From: Methanocalculus chunghsingensis
GTDB lineage: Archaea > Halobacteriota > Methanomicrobia > Methanomicrobiales > Methanocorpusculaceae
DNA length: 64,000 nt
Reading direction: 5' to 3'
Assembly (NCBI RefSeq): GCF_018132105.1
Contig: NZ_JWHL01000003.1
Span: 1 to 64,000 of the forward strand
This document shows positions 50,390 to 59,483 of this stretch, one piece after another. The notes under the pieces are model-generated. The model made no database searches. It was given only the letters and a program-made list of their open reading frames with translations, and was not told the DNA's origin. Position 1 is the first letter of the stretch; every line of letters begins with the position of its first letter. The position numbers and the translations under genes were made by a program.

Positions 50390-51166
50390 TCAGAGCGCGT
50401 TGATGAGCGATCTGCGGGTGACAAGGCCGACCGGCTTTGTATCGTTTGTTACAAGGACGGTGCTGATGTTCTTCTCTTCCATCAGGGCGATAACATCATC
50501 GACGGTCTTGCCTTTCTCAACGGAGGTGACCGGGGTGCTCATGATATCCTGTGCAATCAGATTCCTGATACGGTTATCATGGTGTTTCACCTCGACAAGC
50601 TCTTTGAGCTTCATAATAGCCTGGGCGAGGTCGGTCTCGGTGACAATACCAAGAACCCTGCTATTGTCGGCAACGATGAATCGTGTTGCCGAGTCATCGA
50701 CCATCCTCCTGTGAAGGTGAACAATCCGATCCTCGGGTGTGATCTTCGGTGCAAGCTCGATGACGTCTTCAAGCGGGCAGTCAGGTTTCATCACTCTGAG
50801 GAGATCGCCCATTGTCACCATGCCGATGAGCTTGTGCTCTGCATCCAGCACGACGACGATCTTATAGCTCTGGAGGAGGGGGATGAGGATGTCAATATCC
50901 TGATCATGGTAGGCGAAGGTGTAGTCTTCTTTGGTGACGTTCGCTACATGAATCTGCGTCGGGGGAATGGGCCCACTCCTTATGCTACCGATCTTTTCGG
51001 CAATAGTGCGCCGGGATGCAGTCCCTACGACCTGATTGTTGTGCGTGACGATGATCGGATCGACTCCCTCATCGAGCATGCGTTCGAGTGCCTCGGTGAT
51101 GAGTGAGGATTTTGCGATACTGACGGGCTTTGACATGACGTCTTTGATGGTGATCTGTGTTGTCAT
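50390..51166 (-). CDS. Four-CBS-domain protein
   Basis: 258 residues made of four CBS domains (two Bateman modules). Recognisable units: IKDVMSKPVSIAKSS, the LLQSYKIVVVLDAEHK unit, RFIVADNSRVLGIVTETDL and IMSTPVTSVEKGK ending in GLVTRRSLI. No catalytic domain is attached. CBS pairs bind adenine nucleotides or SAM as energy or ligand sensors. ATG overlaps the stop of the next gene upstream by 4 bases. Confidence 0.92.
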   Translation of the reverse strand: MTTQITIKDVMSKPVSIAKSSLITEALERMLDEGVDPIIVTHNNQVVGTASRRTIAEKIGSIRSGPIPPTQIHVANVTKEDYTFAYHDQDIDILIPLLQSYKIVVVLDAEHKLIGMVTMGDLLRVMKPDCPLEDVIELAPKITPEDRIVHLHRRMVDDSATRFIVADNSRVLGIVTETDLAQAIMKLKELVEVKHHDNRIRNLIAQDIMSTPVTSVEKGKTVDDVIALMEEKNISTVLVTNDTKPVGLVTRRSLINAL

Positions 51167-52008
51167 TGTGCTACCTCTTTCAGTATGTCGTCTCGTTTTA
51201 ATATTCCTTTGATGTCGGTGCCCTCAACAGCGATGATACTGTTGATATTGTGCTTGCGCATCAGTGCGATCGCGCCAGCGACAGACTCGGACGGGCTGAT
51301 GGTGATCACGGGCCGTGACATGACATCCTCTGCGATTGCTGAAACGCTCCTGACATGTCGCAGGCTCTTTCTCCCCCCGCTCTCTTCACGCCGCAGATGC
51401 ATAATCTCCTTTTCAGGAACTCCGTTTTCAAAGATATACCCGTAGAATGCAATATTTGACTCGGTGATGACACCTGCAAGCGTGCCGTCATTATTGACGA
51501 CAAGGAGCTTGTCGTTTCGTTCCCGTATCACATCGATGACATGGCTGAGTGAGTGGTACCGGGAGATCGTCACCACATCCTCCATGATATCAGCAACTGT
51601 CGCCTTGATCTTCTCGACATCGGGTGCAGCCATAATATCCGTCTTTGTGATGATCCCAACCACGGTACCAAGATCGGTCACCGGAAGACTGCTGATATCA
51701 TGCATCATCATCATACGTGCTGCCTCTTTGAGATCAGCCTCCGGTGAAATCGTCATCGGATCCTTCTTCATCATCACCTCGACCGGAATATTATCGATCG
51801 GGCGTCTCCTCCAGAGAGGATCGCTCTGCCGGAAACCATGGGCAATATCCTTCTTGGTGATGATACCTGTGAGATTCTCTCTATCCATTACCAGAAGCCG
51901 TGAGATATGGTGCTTCAGTAACAGGTTGCGTGCATACGCAATGTTCTCTGTTTTGCTCACGACATAAACCGGGGATGACATCATCTCTCTGACAATCATG
52001 GCTCTCAC
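51163..52008 (-). CDS. Four-CBS-domain protein
   Basis: 281 residues, four CBS domains: REMMSSPVYVVSKTE, VEVMMKKDPMTISPEA, VADIMEDVVTISRYHS and EDVMSRPVITISPSESV, each followed by a GIIT- or GVIT-type strand. It overlaps genes on both sides by ATGA, so the cluster is one operon. The lack of an output domain suggests it acts on a partner protein. Confidence 0.92.
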   Translation of the reverse strand: MRAMIVREMMSSPVYVVSKTENIAYARNLLLKHHISRLLVMDRENLTGIITKKDIAHGFRQSDPLWRRRPIDNIPVEVMMKKDPMTISPEADLKEAARMMMMHDISSLPVTDLGTVVGIITKTDIMAAPDVEKIKATVADIMEDVVTISRYHSLSHVIDVIRERNDKLLVVNNDGTLAGVITESNIAFYGYIFENGVPEKEIMHLRREESGGRKSLRHVRSVSAIAEDVMSRPVITISPSESVAGAIALMRKHNINSIIAVEGTDIKGILKRDDILKEVAQ

Positions 52009-52946
52009 CTCTGTGCGAGTGCTTTAACAAGATCATATTCTGTTATCATTCCGATAAGGCGCGCATCTTCTGTGACCGGAAACGCACCAATCTGCTTCTG
52101 AATCATCTCACGTGCGATCTCGTGTATGTCCTTCTGAGGGGTGGTTGTGTAAAGATTGCCGGAGATGATCGATCGAATCGGGCGTGCCGTCACTTCTGCA
52201 ACCTCGCCCGTCTGCATCGATCGGAACACTTCTCCGGAGCCGACATATTTCATGATGTCTGTTGCGGTGACGATGCCAAAGAGCACATCATCGGAGACGA
52301 CCGGAAGTCTCCTGAAATGATATTTGTTCATCTGTTTTGCAACTTCAGCAATTGAACAGTCAGGGTAGGTTACCCGCGGTGAATAGGACATCACGTCCTC
52401 AACAGTCAGCTGGCTCTGTTCGATGGAGAGCGATTTCAGGAGATCATATTCGGTGACGATACCAACGACATGCTCATCATTATCGATGATCGGAACCCCG
52501 CCATGCCTCTTTTCGACGATGATCTCGACTGCAGCCTGCATATCGTCGTTTGTATGGAGGGTCATCACATTCTCGGTCATGATGGATCTGAGATTCTCGT
52601 TGATGGCAGAGAGGAAGTTACCCTGGTGTTTGTTCCTCACCAGATTGTGCCGGTCCCCACCCCCCATGAAATCAACGATGTCAGTAACGGTGATAATGCC
52701 ACGCAGCTTCCGACTTCCTGCATCTGCTATCGGCAGCCTGCGGAATCCCTCGCGGGTCATCGTCTCGACGCCATCGCAGATGCTCATCGTGGGAGGGACG
52801 CATACAACATCGCTGACTCCGATGTTCATTACTCCGCCCTGACGATCAGCCGGGCGTGACCTGAACTCAATGGGTCCACGATCCTGCTTACCGGCTCTCA
52901 TTAGATAGCGCTCACCTTTGTTATGGCCTGAATTATTATCGTGCAT
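52005..52946 (-). CDS. Four-CBS-domain protein
   Basis: 313 residues; about 40 polar residues (HDNNSGHNKGERY) precede four CBS domains: VSDVVCVPPTMSICDG, SIMTENVMTLHTNDD, VEDVMSYSPRVTYPD and a last unit ending GMITEYDLVKAL. The N-terminal stretch is not CBS-like and may be an artefact of start choice; an in-frame ATG at about 52901 is an alternative. The stop overlaps the downstream gene by ATGA. Confidence 0.9.
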   Translation of the reverse strand: MHDNNSGHNKGERYLMRAGKQDRGPIEFRSRPADRQGGVMNIGVSDVVCVPPTMSICDGVETMTREGFRRLPIADAGSRKLRGIITVTDIVDFMGGGDRHNLVRNKHQGNFLSAINENLRSIMTENVMTLHTNDDMQAAVEIIVEKRHGGVPIIDNDEHVVGIVTEYDLLKSLSIEQSQLTVEDVMSYSPRVTYPDCSIAEVAKQMNKYHFRRLPVVSDDVLFGIVTATDIMKYVGSGEVFRSMQTGEVAEVTARPIRSIISGNLYTTTPQKDIHEIAREMIQKQIGAFPVTEDARLIGMITEYDLVKALAQR

Positions 52947-52955
52947 GGTGGTTCC

Positions 52956-53714
52956 TTACGCCTTTTTGACTATGGTTCTCAGGACATCATGGCGATCCAG
53001 GATGCCAACGACAGTTCCCTCAGAAACAACCGGCATGCGGCTGATATCATGAGATACGAGGAGGTGTGATGCTTCGGACACCGGCATATCCGGTGTTGCC
53101 GTGATGACCGGGGTGGTCATCACCTTGCCAATCCGGGTATTTGAGCTGTTCCCAAGTGATCGCCTGATACCGCCGTTTTCCACAAGATCCCGGCGTGATA
53201 TCACTCCGAGAAGCTCCTTCCCCTTGACAATGGGGAGAGATGCATATCCGGTATCGGTGATAAGGGAGTAGACCTTCTGAATGGTGTCTTCAGTATCACA
53301 GCAGACGACATCTCCTGTCATAACGTCCTTGACATTTCCGGTGATCTCATGGCGTGAGACCAGTATCGGAAAGAGATCGCGAAGAAGGATGGATCCGACA
53401 AACTTCCCGTTCCCTGCGGATACCGGAATGCTGTCGGTTCCTGTCTTCAGAATGGTAAGGGCGGCATCCTCAAGTGGTGTATCCAGAGAGATACCTGGTA
53501 CATCACGGATGAACCCTGCAATGGTGACATTTGATCGTGTGTCTGGTACCCTGAGGACATCGGTGATATCGATCATCCCGCTCAGGTGTCCCTGATCATC
53601 TGTGATGTAGATCTCTCGGTAGACATCATCACGAAGAATCTGCCGTGCTCTGGTGACATACTCGTTCTTTTTAAGAGATGTCACCTCTATCATCAGGTCA
53701 CGTGCAACTTTCAT
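52956..53714 (-). CDS. Four-CBS-domain protein
   Basis: 252 residues, four CBS domains: ARDLMIEVTSLKKNE, AGFIRDVPGISLDTP, VKDVMTGDVVCCDTED and IGKVMTTPVITATPDM, ending VGILDRHDVL. It overlaps the zinc-ribbon CBS gene by 4 bases and lies 9 bases upstream of the next CBS gene. Confidence 0.92.
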   Translation of the reverse strand: MKVARDLMIEVTSLKKNEYVTRARQILRDDVYREIYITDDQGHLSGMIDITDVLRVPDTRSNVTIAGFIRDVPGISLDTPLEDAALTILKTGTDSIPVSAGNGKFVGSILLRDLFPILVSRHEITGNVKDVMTGDVVCCDTEDTIQKVYSLITDTGYASLPIVKGKELLGVISRRDLVENGGIRRSLGNSSNTRIGKVMTTPVITATPDMPVSEASHLLVSHDISRMPVVSEGTVVGILDRHDVLRTIVKKA

Positions 53715-54274
53715 ACGATTGACTCCTCATCACGGCATATCGGGCAGAGGTTCTGGTTGTCGATGTATCTGAGCTCATCTGATAGGCTTCCGCATCGGTC
53801 GCAGACGCCGTCATTGTAGTCCTGCACCCGGTTAATCACAATCAGGTCGCTCATGATCTCATTCATCTCGGTCGCAATGCTGAGGATATCACGTACTGTG
53901 ATGATCCCGATGACCTTCTGATCTCCATTGACGACCGGGAGTCTTCGGACACGACTTTGTGACATCATCCGTGCAGCTTCTGCAATGGTTGCATCAGCCC
54001 CGATGGTGATGAGGGGCGTGCTCATTACTTCCTTAACAAATACCTCTCCAGGTTTTTTGTCGAGTGCCATTATCTTGCAGTTAAAATCCTCCTCGGTTAC
54101 AATACCAATTGGAAGGTTATTCTGCAGAACGATGCAGCTGCCAACCTCATCGCGGCACATCGCCAGTGCTGCCTCGGCAGTTGTTGCATGTGCATCAATT
54201 GTGGTCGGATGAAGTTTCATTACTTCGCGAACCGGAATGCGTGTTTCGAAATCCATGTTGTCACTTTGTTTCAT
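53711..54274 (-). CDS. Two-CBS-domain protein with C-terminal zinc ribbon
   Basis: 187 residues: two CBS domains (VREVMKLHPTTIDAH and VKEVMSTPLITIGADA) and a zinc-ribbon-like tail CDRCG then CPICRDE, two CxxC pairs. The tail may bind nucleic acid or protein, so this member is the best candidate for the output protein of the cluster. First gene of the five-gene operon. ATG 54274 or 54256. Confidence 0.9.
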   Translation of the reverse strand: MKQSDNMDFETRIPVREVMKLHPTTIDAHATTAEAALAMCRDEVGSCIVLQNNLPIGIVTEEDFNCKIMALDKKPGEVFVKEVMSTPLITIGADATIAEAARMMSQSRVRRLPVVNGDQKVIGIITVRDILSIATEMNEIMSDLIVINRVQDYNDGVCDRCGSLSDELRYIDNQNLCPICRDEESIV

Positions 54275-56141: not shown

Positions 56142-57308
56142 GTGAAGACACACTATCTGACATCCGTATCCCAAATCATAGGCCTTTCGCCAGAAGAGCG
56201 GAAGGAGATCGCTGAAACTGAGAAATGGTTCTCATTCAGAGCGACCGACTATTATCTGAACCTGATCGACTGGTCTGATCCGTTTGATCCGATCCGCAGG
56301 ATCATTGTTCCTGATATTGCTGAACTGGAAAAAGATGGCGATCTCGATCCATCCTCTGAATCCTCCTACACGATGGCTCCCGGCCTCCAGCATAAATATG
56401 CACGTACGGGTCTGCTGCTTGTCTCTGATCAGTGTGGCGGGCTCTGCCGGTACTGTTTCAGGAAGCGACTCTTCGTTGATAACGCCGATGAGGTTGTCCC
56501 GGATGTCTCTTTGGGAATTGAGTATATACGCAATCATCCTGAAATAACAAACGTCCTCCTCACCGGCGGCGATCCCCTGATGCTTCCGACCCGGGAACTC
56601 AGAAAGATCATCGAAGAGATCAGGGATATTGAGCATGTAAAGATCATCCGCATCGGGAGCAAGATGCCGGCATATTATCCGATGAGGATCTCAGGGGATC
56701 AGGAGCTCCTCGATCTCCTGGCCGAATATAGTCTTCCCGAGAAGCGGATCTATCTGATGAGCCAGTTCACGCATCCGAGGGAGATTACTCCTGAGGCGAT
56801 GGAAGCGGTCACCGCCCTCCTTGATCATGGTGTGATGATCCTCAATCAGACACCGGTACTCAGGGGGATCAATGACTCTGCCGAGGTGCTTGGTGAGCTC
56901 TTCCGGACCCTCTCGTTCATCGGGGTCTCTCCTTACTACATCTTCCAGTGCCGCCCGACACGTGGTAACAGAACCTATGCCGTCCCGATTGAGGAAGGAT
57001 ACCGTATCTTTGAGGAAGCACGTGCAACAGCTTCAGGAATAGCCAAGCGTGCCCGCTTTGTGATGTCGCATGCGACAGGAAAGATTGAGGTGGCTGCCTG
57101 TACGAAGGAGTACATCGTCATGAAGTATCATCAGGCGGCAGATCCCGAAGAGATGGGGAAGGTTCTCGTCTTCCGAAGAGATCCCTCGGCGTACTGGCTG
57201 GATGATTATTCTGTTCCTGTTGACAGCTGCGATGTAACTGACCTTAATAATCATAGATCGTCTCATACTATGCGGCAATCAAATGAAGCGGACACCCTTT
57301 CGGAGTAG
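56142..57308 (+). CDS. Lysine 2,3-aminomutase-like radical SAM enzyme (KamA family)
   Basis: GTG 56142 is preferred: a nearly ideal Shine-Dalgarno GGAGGTGATC lies at 56130-56139; the open frame from ATG 56049 has no such site. 388 residues. Radical SAM motif C98-x3-C102-x2-C105 (CGGLCRYC) followed by FRKR, and LLTGGDPLMLP is the SAM-binding GGD-type loop. PLP-binding features follow the family pattern but I cannot be sure of the lysine. In methanogens such enzymes make beta-lysine for the osmolyte N-acetyl-beta-lysine, but no acetyltransferase is adjacent here, so the substrate is open. Confidence 0.8.
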   Translation: MKTHYLTSVSQIIGLSPEERKEIAETEKWFSFRATDYYLNLIDWSDPFDPIRRIIVPDIAELEKDGDLDPSSESSYTMAPGLQHKYARTGLLLVSDQCGGLCRYCFRKRLFVDNADEVVPDVSLGIEYIRNHPEITNVLLTGGDPLMLPTRELRKIIEEIRDIEHVKIIRIGSKMPAYYPMRISGDQELLDLLAEYSLPEKRIYLMSQFTHPREITPEAMEAVTALLDHGVMILNQTPVLRGINDSAEVLGELFRTLSFIGVSPYYIFQCRPTRGNRTYAVPIEEGYRIFEEARATASGIAKRARFVMSHATGKIEVAACTKEYIVMKYHQAADPEEMGKVLVFRRDPSAYWLDDYSVPVDSCDVTDLNNHRSSHTMRQSNEADTLSE

Positions 57309-57375
57309 TGGGATTCCCCTTCCCCTCCGATACCCTTAATCCCTCTTCTGATCAACATAGTATCTGCACATCATG

Positions 57376-57525
57376 TGCTGGCTGAGGTAAGTCCGACGTG
57401 CTCAAGTAGCACTGCCCTGTATGTGGGCTTGGGATTGCGGCGAGTCAGATACGGCTCTTTTCGTGACTTACGGTGAACGGTATGACCGGACACATCTGCT
57501 GTAACCAGCAGGCAGCTAAAAAATT
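57376..57525 (+). ncRNA. Candidate structured RNA upstream of rpsO
   Basis: A non-coding stretch of about 150 nt before S15 contains: a hairpin GTGCT-CAAGT-AGCAC (57398-57412); a long-range pairing GTAAGTC (57387-57393) with GACTTAC (57465-57471) that encloses it; and a perfect 3' hairpin CTGCTG-TAAC-CAGCAG (57496-57511) followed by an A-rich stretch. GC content is high and no frame fits a protein. It could be an independent small RNA (for example an H/ACA-type guide; ACA follows CCGG at 57490-57494) or an autoregulatory leader of S15. I do not recognise a named family. Confidence 0.45.
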
Positions 57526-57537
57526 TCGAGGTACCAT

Positions 57538-57996
57538 ATGGCACGAATGTATGCACGACGGAAGGGATCGTCCGGCTCCGTCCGTCCCCACAGGAAGGAT
57601 GTTCCGGAATGGTTCAATACCGATCTCGCTGAGATCGAGAAGCTGGTCGTCGATATGAGAAAGGAAGGTCTTTCAACAGCCGTCATCGGGACGATTCTCC
57701 GTGATAAATACGGCGTTCCTGATGTAAAACTTGCAACAGGGAAGCGTGTTGGTGCAATCCTTGCAGAGCACGACATGACCTCTGATATCCCTGAGGATCT
57801 CAGAAACCTGATGCAGAAGGCTCTTGGACTCCGCAAGCATCTTGCAGAGAATAAGAAGGATGTTCATAACAAACGGCAGCTTCAGCTGACCGAATCGAAG
57901 GTCCGGCGTCTCGTCAAATATTATCGGAAGGCAGGCAAACTCCCACAGGAGTGGGTCTACAAACCGGAGACCGCAGAGATTCTCCTCTCAAGATAA
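57538..57996 (+). CDS. rpsO: Ribosomal protein S15 (uS15, archaeal)
   Basis: 152 residues, with the archaeal/eukaryotic N-terminal extension MARMYARRKGSSGS and KDVPEWF, then the uS15 core LGLRKHLAENKKDVHNKRQL (core RKHLAENKKD) and VRRLVKYYR. ATG 57538 has a GAGGT ribosome site just before it. First gene of a plus-strand operon with the DHH exonuclease, Pcc1 and S3Ae. Confidence 0.97.
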   Translation: MARMYARRKGSSGSVRPHRKDVPEWFNTDLAEIEKLVVDMRKEGLSTAVIGTILRDKYGVPDVKLATGKRVGAILAEHDMTSDIPEDLRNLMQKALGLRKHLAENKKDVHNKRQLQLTESKVRRLVKYYRKAGKLPQEWVYKPETAEILLSR

Positions 57997-57999
57997 ACC

Positions 58000-59214
58000 A
58001 TGCCCCTTTCGCCGTCAGCAGAAAAGCTCGCAGATCATCTGCAGTCCCTCGACTTTGTGGAGGTCTATGCCCACCATGATGCCGATGGTATCGCAGCTGC
58101 GTCTATACTCTGTACGGCGTTATCCCGGTGTCATATTCCGTTTCATCTGCGGATCCTCCCGACAATAACTGCTGACCAGGTTCCCTCCGATCGCCCGGTG
58201 CTCCTCTGTGATTTCGGTTCGTCATTCCATGATCTGGGTGACTCTGTGATGGTCATCGATCACCATATCCCTCTTTTTACCGGAGAATTCCATGTAAATC
58301 CGAGGCTTCATGGGATCGATGGAGATCGTGAACTCTCAACCTCAGGAGCGGCGTACTTTGTTGCAGAGAAGATGGGTGACAATCGTGATCTCGCGGGCCT
58401 TGCTCTCCTTGGAGTGATCGGGGATCGCCAGGAATATTCAGGCCTCAACCGTGAGATTTTGAATCAGGGTATCGGACATGGGATCATCTCGACGAGAAGG
58501 GGTTGTACCCTTCCCGGAAGGGAGCTCTTTGAGCGTCTCTTCCTCTCGACAGATCCGTATCTTCCATCCGTTACCGGTTCTGAAGCAGTCTGCAGGGAAC
58601 TTGCGGCATCTCTTGATGCGGATGCATCTGTTGAGGAGGATCCGCTCTTCCTCTCACGCCTCGTCCTCTCGGTCGGGGATGATGCCTCTGCTGATGCAAT
58701 CCTCCGGATATATGGAGATGTCTATGCTCTTGAGCGCGAGGTGGTCCCTGATGCACCATCGCTTGCAGCAGTCGTCGATGCCTGCGGAAAGTCAGGCCAT
58801 GGCGGGCTTGCGGCATCGCTCTGTCTCGGGGACTCCTCCGGCATCTCTGATGCATGGGATCATTTCAGGACATTTCGGGAGCGGGTTATCCAGGGTCTTC
58901 AATCCGTCGCCTCTCTCGGCGGTGGATGGTATCGCCTGGATGATTCGGTGGTGGCATCCGACATCGCCGATATCCTCTCTCATGATCGTCCTTATCATGA
59001 TCCCGTCTTTGTTCTCGTTGATGATGGCGCGATCTGCAGAGTATCTGCTCGTGCCCCACCTGAGAACGGTATCAATCTTGGTGAGATCGTGAAAGATGCA
59101 GCAACGTTTGTTGGAGGGAGTGGCGGTGGCCACAACCGGAGGGCCGGAGCGACGATACCGCAAAACAGTGTTGATGCCTTCAGGGAGGCGGTCAGGGAGG
59201 CGAGCCTCTCATGA
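58000..59214 (+). CDS. DHH-family single-strand exonuclease (archaeal RecJ/GAN-like)
   Basis: 404 residues. DHH motifs: AHHDADGIAAAS (HDADG), LLCDFGSS, MVIDHHIP, and a C-terminal DHHA1 loop GGSGGGHNRRAGATI. These bind two metal ions. Archaeal members act in replication/repair with GINS or in RNA 5'-3' decay. It starts 3 bases after the S15 stop and overlaps Pcc1 by 4 bases, an arrangement kept across euryarchaea. Confidence 0.92.
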   Translation: MPLSPSAEKLADHLQSLDFVEVYAHHDADGIAAASILCTALSRCHIPFHLRILPTITADQVPSDRPVLLCDFGSSFHDLGDSVMVIDHHIPLFTGEFHVNPRLHGIDGDRELSTSGAAYFVAEKMGDNRDLAGLALLGVIGDRQEYSGLNREILNQGIGHGIISTRRGCTLPGRELFERLFLSTDPYLPSVTGSEAVCRELAASLDADASVEEDPLFLSRLVLSVGDDASADAILRIYGDVYALEREVVPDAPSLAAVVDACGKSGHGGLAASLCLGDSSGISDAWDHFRTFRERVIQGLQSVASLGGGWYRLDDSVVASDIADILSHDRPYHDPVFVLVDDGAICRVSARAPPENGINLGEIVKDAATFVGGSGGGHNRRAGATIPQNSVDAFREAVREASLS

Positions 59215-59483
59215 TACGTGGAAGCGGGAGGATCAGATCCCATCATTCGGATCCTGATACTGTTGCTGGCAGTCTCTCCCCTGACAATCTCCTTGGTATG
59301 GAGACGATGGTGGATGGAGAGTATGTCGAGACGATGATCGTGGAGAAGCCGATCCGGTCTCTCCTCGCTTCAGTGGATGATTATCTGATGAACCTCTCCA
59401 TAGCAGATGCACTCTCTGATGAGAAGATGAATAGATTGACAGCGGGAAATGGCACGGATCTTTTGAATGATGAAGAAGATTAG
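59211..59483 (+). CDS. pcc1: KEOPS complex subunit Pcc1
   Basis: 90 residues. SGRIRSHHSDPDTVAGSLSPDN (core DPDTVAGSLSPDN) and MRSLLASVDDYL-like helix (seen as RSLLASVDDYLMNL) are typical of Pcc1, the dimerising subunit of the KEOPS complex that makes t6A37 in tRNA. ATG overlaps the exonuclease stop. Confidence 0.9.
   Translation: MIRGSGRIRSHHSDPDTVAGSLSPDNLLGMETMVDGEYVETMIVEKPIRSLLASVDDYLMNLSIADALSDEKMNRLTAGNGTDLLNDEED

Follow-up and report, generated by a model that had tools for sequence, protein, structure and literature searches.

A conserved arm downstream of the S15-Methanomicrobia leader may compete for its protein-binding junction and form a two-state switch

What lies between the radical-SAM gene that ends at 57308 and the ribosomal protein S15 gene in Methanocalculus chunghsingensis, and does a long-range pairing noticed there have a function? 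The window analysed here is a 64,000-nt stretch of contig NZ_JWHL01000003.1, for which a preliminary description had singled out a 150-nt non-coding segment (57376-57525) as a candidate structured RNA. The hairpins and the complementary strands GTAAGTC (57387-57393) and GACTTAC (57465-57471) are present as described, and the S15 gene placed downstream does start at 57538 (57538-57996; Pfam PF08069 and PF00312; forward strand, as are all features of the leader). The segment had also been called GC-rich, which at 52.7% versus 51.8% for the whole window it hardly is. The S15 gene is followed by a gene for a DHH/DHHA1 protein and then by S3Ae; PMC7247131 lists the S15 leader with the same downstream genes (often recJ and rps3ae). 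From reading of the sequence, a TATA-like CTTAAT at 57335-57340 is the probable promoter element of the S15 transcript, from which transcription would begin close to the first hairpin of the leader, and a Shine-Dalgarno-like GAGGT is found at 57528-57532. TATA-like motifs were seen upstream of 139 of 150 leaders, at variable positions. Elsewhere in the window, a 90-aa ORF of the S15 operon (59211-59483, forward strand), located after the gene for the DHH protein and before S3Ae, gave no Pfam match at E 0.001, and four adjacent ORFs on the reverse strand (51163-54274) resemble tandem CBS-domain proteins when their translations are inspected by eye.

One half of the answer is a known RNA. Positions 57365-57438 (forward strand) matched the covariance model of the S15-Methanomicrobia leader, RF03137, with 70.9 bits against a gathering cut-off of 42.2, and the match covered model positions 1 to 74 of 74, comprising a 5' hairpin and a junction with two hairpins. 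The view that the segment resembles no RNA family is thereby overturned, while the accompanying guess of an S15 autoregulatory leader was right and had already been catalogued, the family having been defined by Eckert & Weinberg 2020 (PMC7247131). The 5' limit of the element is approximately 11 nt upstream of the first position originally proposed, and the leader stands directly upstream of the S15 gene, as expected for RF03137. Its predicted function is to bind S15 and to lower S15 expression. The leader and the genome's own 16S rRNA have CTTGGGA and TCCGAC in common, the letters of the 16S site for S15, which fits binding of S15 at the junction as proposed in PMC7247131. RF03137 was detected in 57 of 61 relatives (45/45 among the more complete ones). 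Across the phylum 82 of 392 genomes had it, every one of them from the window's own order, of which one listed genome lacked a match.

The position of the long-range pairing relative to this model is what raises the question of a second state. In the Rfam fold, GTAAGTC is part of a strand, GUAAGUCC (57387-57394), that pairs with GGGAUUGC (57431-57438) and so closes the S15-binding junction. GACTTAC lies approximately 26 nt beyond the 3' end of the model, within a distal arm, UGACUUAC (57464-57471), that carries seven of the eight letters of GGACUUAC. The arm competes for the very strand with which the junction is closed, so only one of the two folds can form at a time: GUAAGUCC is unable to pair with GGGAUUAC and GGACUUAC simultaneously. 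The preliminary description thus saw an extension of a known leader, lying partly outside the 74-nt model. The competing arm, together with a helix P0 and a hairpin before a U-tract (both described below), is absent from the Rfam model and new relative to the catalogued leader. By sequence and predicted folding, one strand has two conserved partners with which it cannot pair simultaneously, the arrangement expected of a two-state attenuator.

Taken as a single sequence, the 7-bp pairing is at chance level: inverted repeats of at least 7 bp arose in 29.5% of 200 mononucleotide shuffles, and in comparison with shuffles the 150-nt segment folded slightly better (z -2.2) and 57365-57471 alone did not (z -0.4). 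The claim is upheld by comparison across the Methanomicrobiales. Among 57 leaders found with the Rfam model, 54, from six families of the order, had at least seven of the eight letters of GGACTTAC downstream, and 51 had in addition a U4 run within 14 nt before the arm. The three leaders below seven letters were L009 and L051, with six of eight letters, and L039, which has a U-tract and no arm. Of 193 pooled loci 192 could be placed (L039 failed the pattern), and merging identical leaders left 150. An arm of at least 7/8 was present in 140 of these (3.0% of shuffles) and an arm of 8/8 in 64 (0.1% of shuffles). The pooled loci were partly picked by a pattern fixing GTAAGTCC; the less biased count is that of the 57 model-found leaders, which share genomes with the pooled set. 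Similarly, the invariance of GUAAGUCC in 150 of 150 distinct leaders is partly given by construction of the set. A looser arm test, allowing G-U pairs and any downstream position, discriminated poorly (7/8 in 35% of shuffles); shuffles were mononucleotide except in the analysis containing this test, from which the invariance of the shared strand was also taken. We judge the long-range pairing to be real across Methanomicrobiales on account of this comparative evidence, not of single-sequence statistics.

Predicted folding agrees with a hand-over of the shared strand. For this purpose 147 leaders were used, i.e. the 150 minus L043, L057 and L182, in which the pattern found no U-tract. For RNA ending at the U-tract, 127 of 147 leaders had the closing pairs of the junction predicted at P>0.5 (median 0.86). 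Once the arm was included, the junction exceeded this value in 2 leaders (median 0.001) and the distal helix did so in 134 (median 0.98). The arm contributed -5.1 kcal/mol, compared to -1.5 for shuffled arms, and with both folds imposed the distal fold was lower in energy in 146/147 leaders, the junction register being fixed and the energies rough. In the window's own leader (L013) the junction dropped from 0.52 to 0.05 on adding the arm, with the distal helix at 0.89, and the gain from the arm was just -1.6 kcal/mol.

The arm comes last in the following layout: junction, (A)GUCAG, a hairpin abutting the U-tract, CUUUU and arm. The U4 tract lies at 57458-57461, and in L013 the hairpin is predicted at 57442-57457 (GAGUC/GGCUC). 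In 97 of 100 distinct segments such a hairpin ended no more than 2 nt from the U-tract. U-tract and arm were separated by 3 nt in 101 of 147 leaders (range 1-12), while leader and U-tract were 11-75 nt apart and arm and start codon 18-217 nt. This tight spacing of U-tract and arm and loose spacing to the start codon points to a joint action of U-tract and arm rather than to a masked ribosome site. Between the distal arm and the ribosome site the window has two further hairpins (57473-57511), a separate addition that could be aligned within the genus only; across eight Methanocalculus leaders their pairs changed on both sides, e.g. C-G to U-A and U-A to C-G. In Methanocorpusculum leaders (e.g. 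L008, L010, L017) GAGTCAG and CTCTTTTC are separated by a long insert with structure, and the sequence 3' of the arm is likewise long and structured.

Comparison also brought out P0, a putative helix outside the Rfam pairs, in which CUGGC (57378-57382) pairs with GUCAG (57444-57448). RNAalifold on 49 leaders gave GCUGRC with GUCAGY, the outermost pair being absent in the window. This alignment, thinned to under 88% likeness and confined to short spacers, so that leaders with long inserts are absent, also underlies the column-wise covariation test and the P0 pair counts given here. P0 cells were 97.6% paired, and at most 48.5% when the strands were slid; the P0 covariation score was reached by 3 of 500 shuffles, and its variable pair was G-U in 27, A-U in 18 and G-C in 4 leaders. 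AGUCAG (57443-57448) appears to have two roles, as P0 partner and as the 5' side of the U-tract hairpin. In 4 of 144 placed leaders AGCC or AGCU stands in its place and both partners have G, few events that make weak evidence. Unconstrained folding of RNA ending at the U-tract predicted P0 with P>0.5 in 31 of 142 leaders (median 0.035). On visual inspection we also considered, and discarded, a kink-turn lying between the junction and P0.

What P0 would do to the U-tract was evaluated with the folds imposed, long leaders being omitted (145 leaders used without P0, 142 with it). Imposing junction and P0 opened the U-tract by >0.2 relative to the distal fold in 111 of 142 leaders, and the reverse held in 9; the hairpin before the U-tract was mostly lost, its median pairing being 0.44 compared to 0.99 in the distal fold. 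Without P0 the openness of the U-tract was the same in both folds and the hairpin differed little (145 leaders). The difference between the folds at the U-tract thus depends on P0.

Together, these data lead us to favour, with moderate confidence, a model in which the RF03137 leader and the conserved part downstream of it form a two-state switch. The nascent RNA would fold the 16S-like junction first. S15 in excess would bind and hold the junction before the arm emerges, and S15 expression would fall. Without S15, the arm would take GUAAGUCC, abolishing the S15 site and committing the transcript to expression. Archaeal S15 leaders have so far been predicted protein-binding pieces without a worked-out output; a second conserved partner of the junction strand would turn this one into a concrete, testable expression platform, and the catalogued RF03137 model appears to stop short of the likely functional element.

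The output is the least certain step. Our favoured candidate is that archaeal RNA polymerase terminates at the U-tract with the help of aCPSF1/FttA, the tract being open in the S15-held fold and, in the other fold, enclosed between hairpin and distal helix. Given the footprint of the polymerase, cutting by FttA may coincide approximately with the exit from the polymerase of the arm, 3 nt past the U-tract. FttA cleaves approximately 15-25 nt behind the RNA 3' end (PMC11616081), and archaeal terminators have U4 runs as their core motif, those of Methanococcus being bound by aCPSF1 (PMC8716108). Efficient aCPSF1 binding in Methanococcus needed two U4 tracts (PMC8716108), compared to one in the window's leader. 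Against termination as the output speak three distinct leaders that keep the arm without a U4 tract (L043, L057 and L182, the first two with an 8/8 arm) and the finding that the state of the U-tract differs between the folds only when P0 is imposed. Should termination be the output, the leader would link ribosomal autoregulation to archaeal factor-dependent termination.

A more specific proposal, which we advance tentatively and consider rather doubtful as a whole, is a transcription switch by double strand swap throughout Methanomicrobiales. S15 would hold GUAAGUCC in the junction and AGUCAG in P0, so that aCPSF1/FttA would find the U-tract exposed; in the absence of S15 the two strands would move, to the distal helix and the U-tract hairpin respectively, and enclose the U-tract. 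Halobacteria, whose own distal arm precedes the start codon, would have a related design with translational output. If true, this would be a protein-sensing attenuator in archaea.

Among other explanations, translational control stands best, even if we regard it as rather unlikely: S15 on the leader would hinder ribosome loading at the S15 start, and the arm would reset the fold of unbound messages. Indeed, 23 of 145 leaders had a ribosome-site stretch that was more open by >0.2 in the distal fold and none showed the opposite, and in Halobacteria the distal arm sits right before the start codon. However, accessibility was nearly unchanged in 122 of 145 leaders (for the start codon the counts were 20 versus 8), and the arm, which is tightly coupled to the U-tract, lies anywhere from 18 to 217 nt from the start codon.

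It is improbable, and more so than translational control, that the leader is the ordinary Rfam S15 leader, with GGACUUAC conserved for another reason (recognition by a protein or RNA, or an mRNA cleavage site) and its match to GUAAGUCC incidental. The complementary strand is invariant and would be kept anyway by 16S mimicry, and column-wise covariation of the distal helix in the 49 thinned leaders was not above shuffles (67/500). The preliminary description had named the lack of both covariation and conservation in relatives as refuting its RNA; this outcome was not seen, as the pairing is conserved through the order, although it shows little covariation, because the shared strand is invariant and variation in the core is possible on the arm only. 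On the arm, variants that keep pairing through G-U are GGATTTAC (19 of 147 leaders), GGATTTGC (2), CGACTTGC (1) and CGGCTTAC (1), while internal variants that break a pair were rare (TGACTTCC, GGACTTTC and GAACTTAC, one each in the 147 leaders). Such variants, and a complementarity of 7-8 bp in 54/57 leaders of six families, argue against an incidental match. So do the flanks: in the Methanoculleus group GGACUUA(A/G)CAUAG stands opposite CUAUG-GUAAGUCC, with one pair lost and a flanking run gained. When partners were swapped (85 distinct flank pairs, reduced to 64 representatives), native partners paired better, with -14.26 versus -13.28 (sd 0.22; 0 of 5000 swaps as low), relatedness not being fully removed. 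The flanks thus support the distal helix without proving it.

An H/ACA-type guide, also suggested in the preliminary description, or another independent small RNA is scarcely credible: hairpins and an ACA triplet (57490-57494) can be read in the sequence, but when 57250-57700 was scanned permissively (up to E 10) with 4227 Rfam families, the sole hits were RF03137 and, on the opposite strand, a hammerhead match at chance level, which speaks against H/ACA or another known RNA. In addition, position and conservation link the segment to the S15 leader, and the downstream pair of hairpins occurred in only eight genomes, all of the genus.

With respect to known systems, the closest relative is RF03137 as catalogued (PMC7247131), with a full match at 57365-57438 and the same gene context; the difference is that the 74-nt model ends before AGUCAG, the hairpin, the U-tract and the distal arm. 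Poly-U stretches just after these leaders were noted as possible terminators in PMC7247131. Its main text contains none of the terms alternative, antiterminator, mutually exclusive, long-range or switch, and does not appear to describe the competing arm, P0 or the U-tract hairpin. Nor is such a switch described in the open-licence literature on the RF03137 family, archaeal S15 autoregulation and leader attenuation, as far as its available portions extend. Bacterial S15 leaders, of several types, likewise place a 16S-mimicking S15 site before the S15 gene, while their structures are unrelated (PMC7247131).

The S15-Halobacteria leader RF03143, found in 192 of 194 genomes of class Halobacteria, belongs to the same clan and also has a 16S-like junction and a far-downstream strand complementary to its 5' part. 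It differs in having another fold and an arm directly before the start codon, and its inner junction and arm are predicted to be able to coexist. The strand, of GCGGUCnGUGCnGUUCC type and mostly 15-18 nt before the start codon (L227-L236, L247-L316), is complementary to GGGAAC.GCACGGCCGC in the 5' part of the leader, a sequence that RF03143 leaves partly unpaired. For 67 distinct pairs the native duplex scored -24.9 versus -24.1 for permuted partners (sd 0.23; 1 of 3000 as low) and -13.4 for shuffled arms. The set comprised 72 distinct leaders, 7 being missed by patterns that fix the gene's first letters. Considered as a switch, the Halobacteria leaders were set aside, as predicted start-codon accessibility, computed for 66 of the 72, was not switch-like. 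A separate observation is that codons 2-3 of the Halobacteria S15 gene are GCA CGA in 77 of 77 distinct genes (scanned with an Ala-Arg-Met start required and the third letters of codons 2-3 free), although elsewhere in these genes GCA makes up 27% of Ala and CGA 8% of Arg codons. The hexamer GCACGA is similar to GCACG of the leader, and pairing of it with the distal arm would be possible.

Bacterial riboswitch and leader attenuators choose between terminator and antiterminator, two exclusive folds that share a strand near a U-tract. The S15 leader of Methanomicrobiales resembles them in that a strand near a U-tract is common to two folds predicted to be exclusive. It differs in that the second partner lies 3' of the U-tract, and in that archaeal termination is not strictly hairpin-dependent (PMC8716108).
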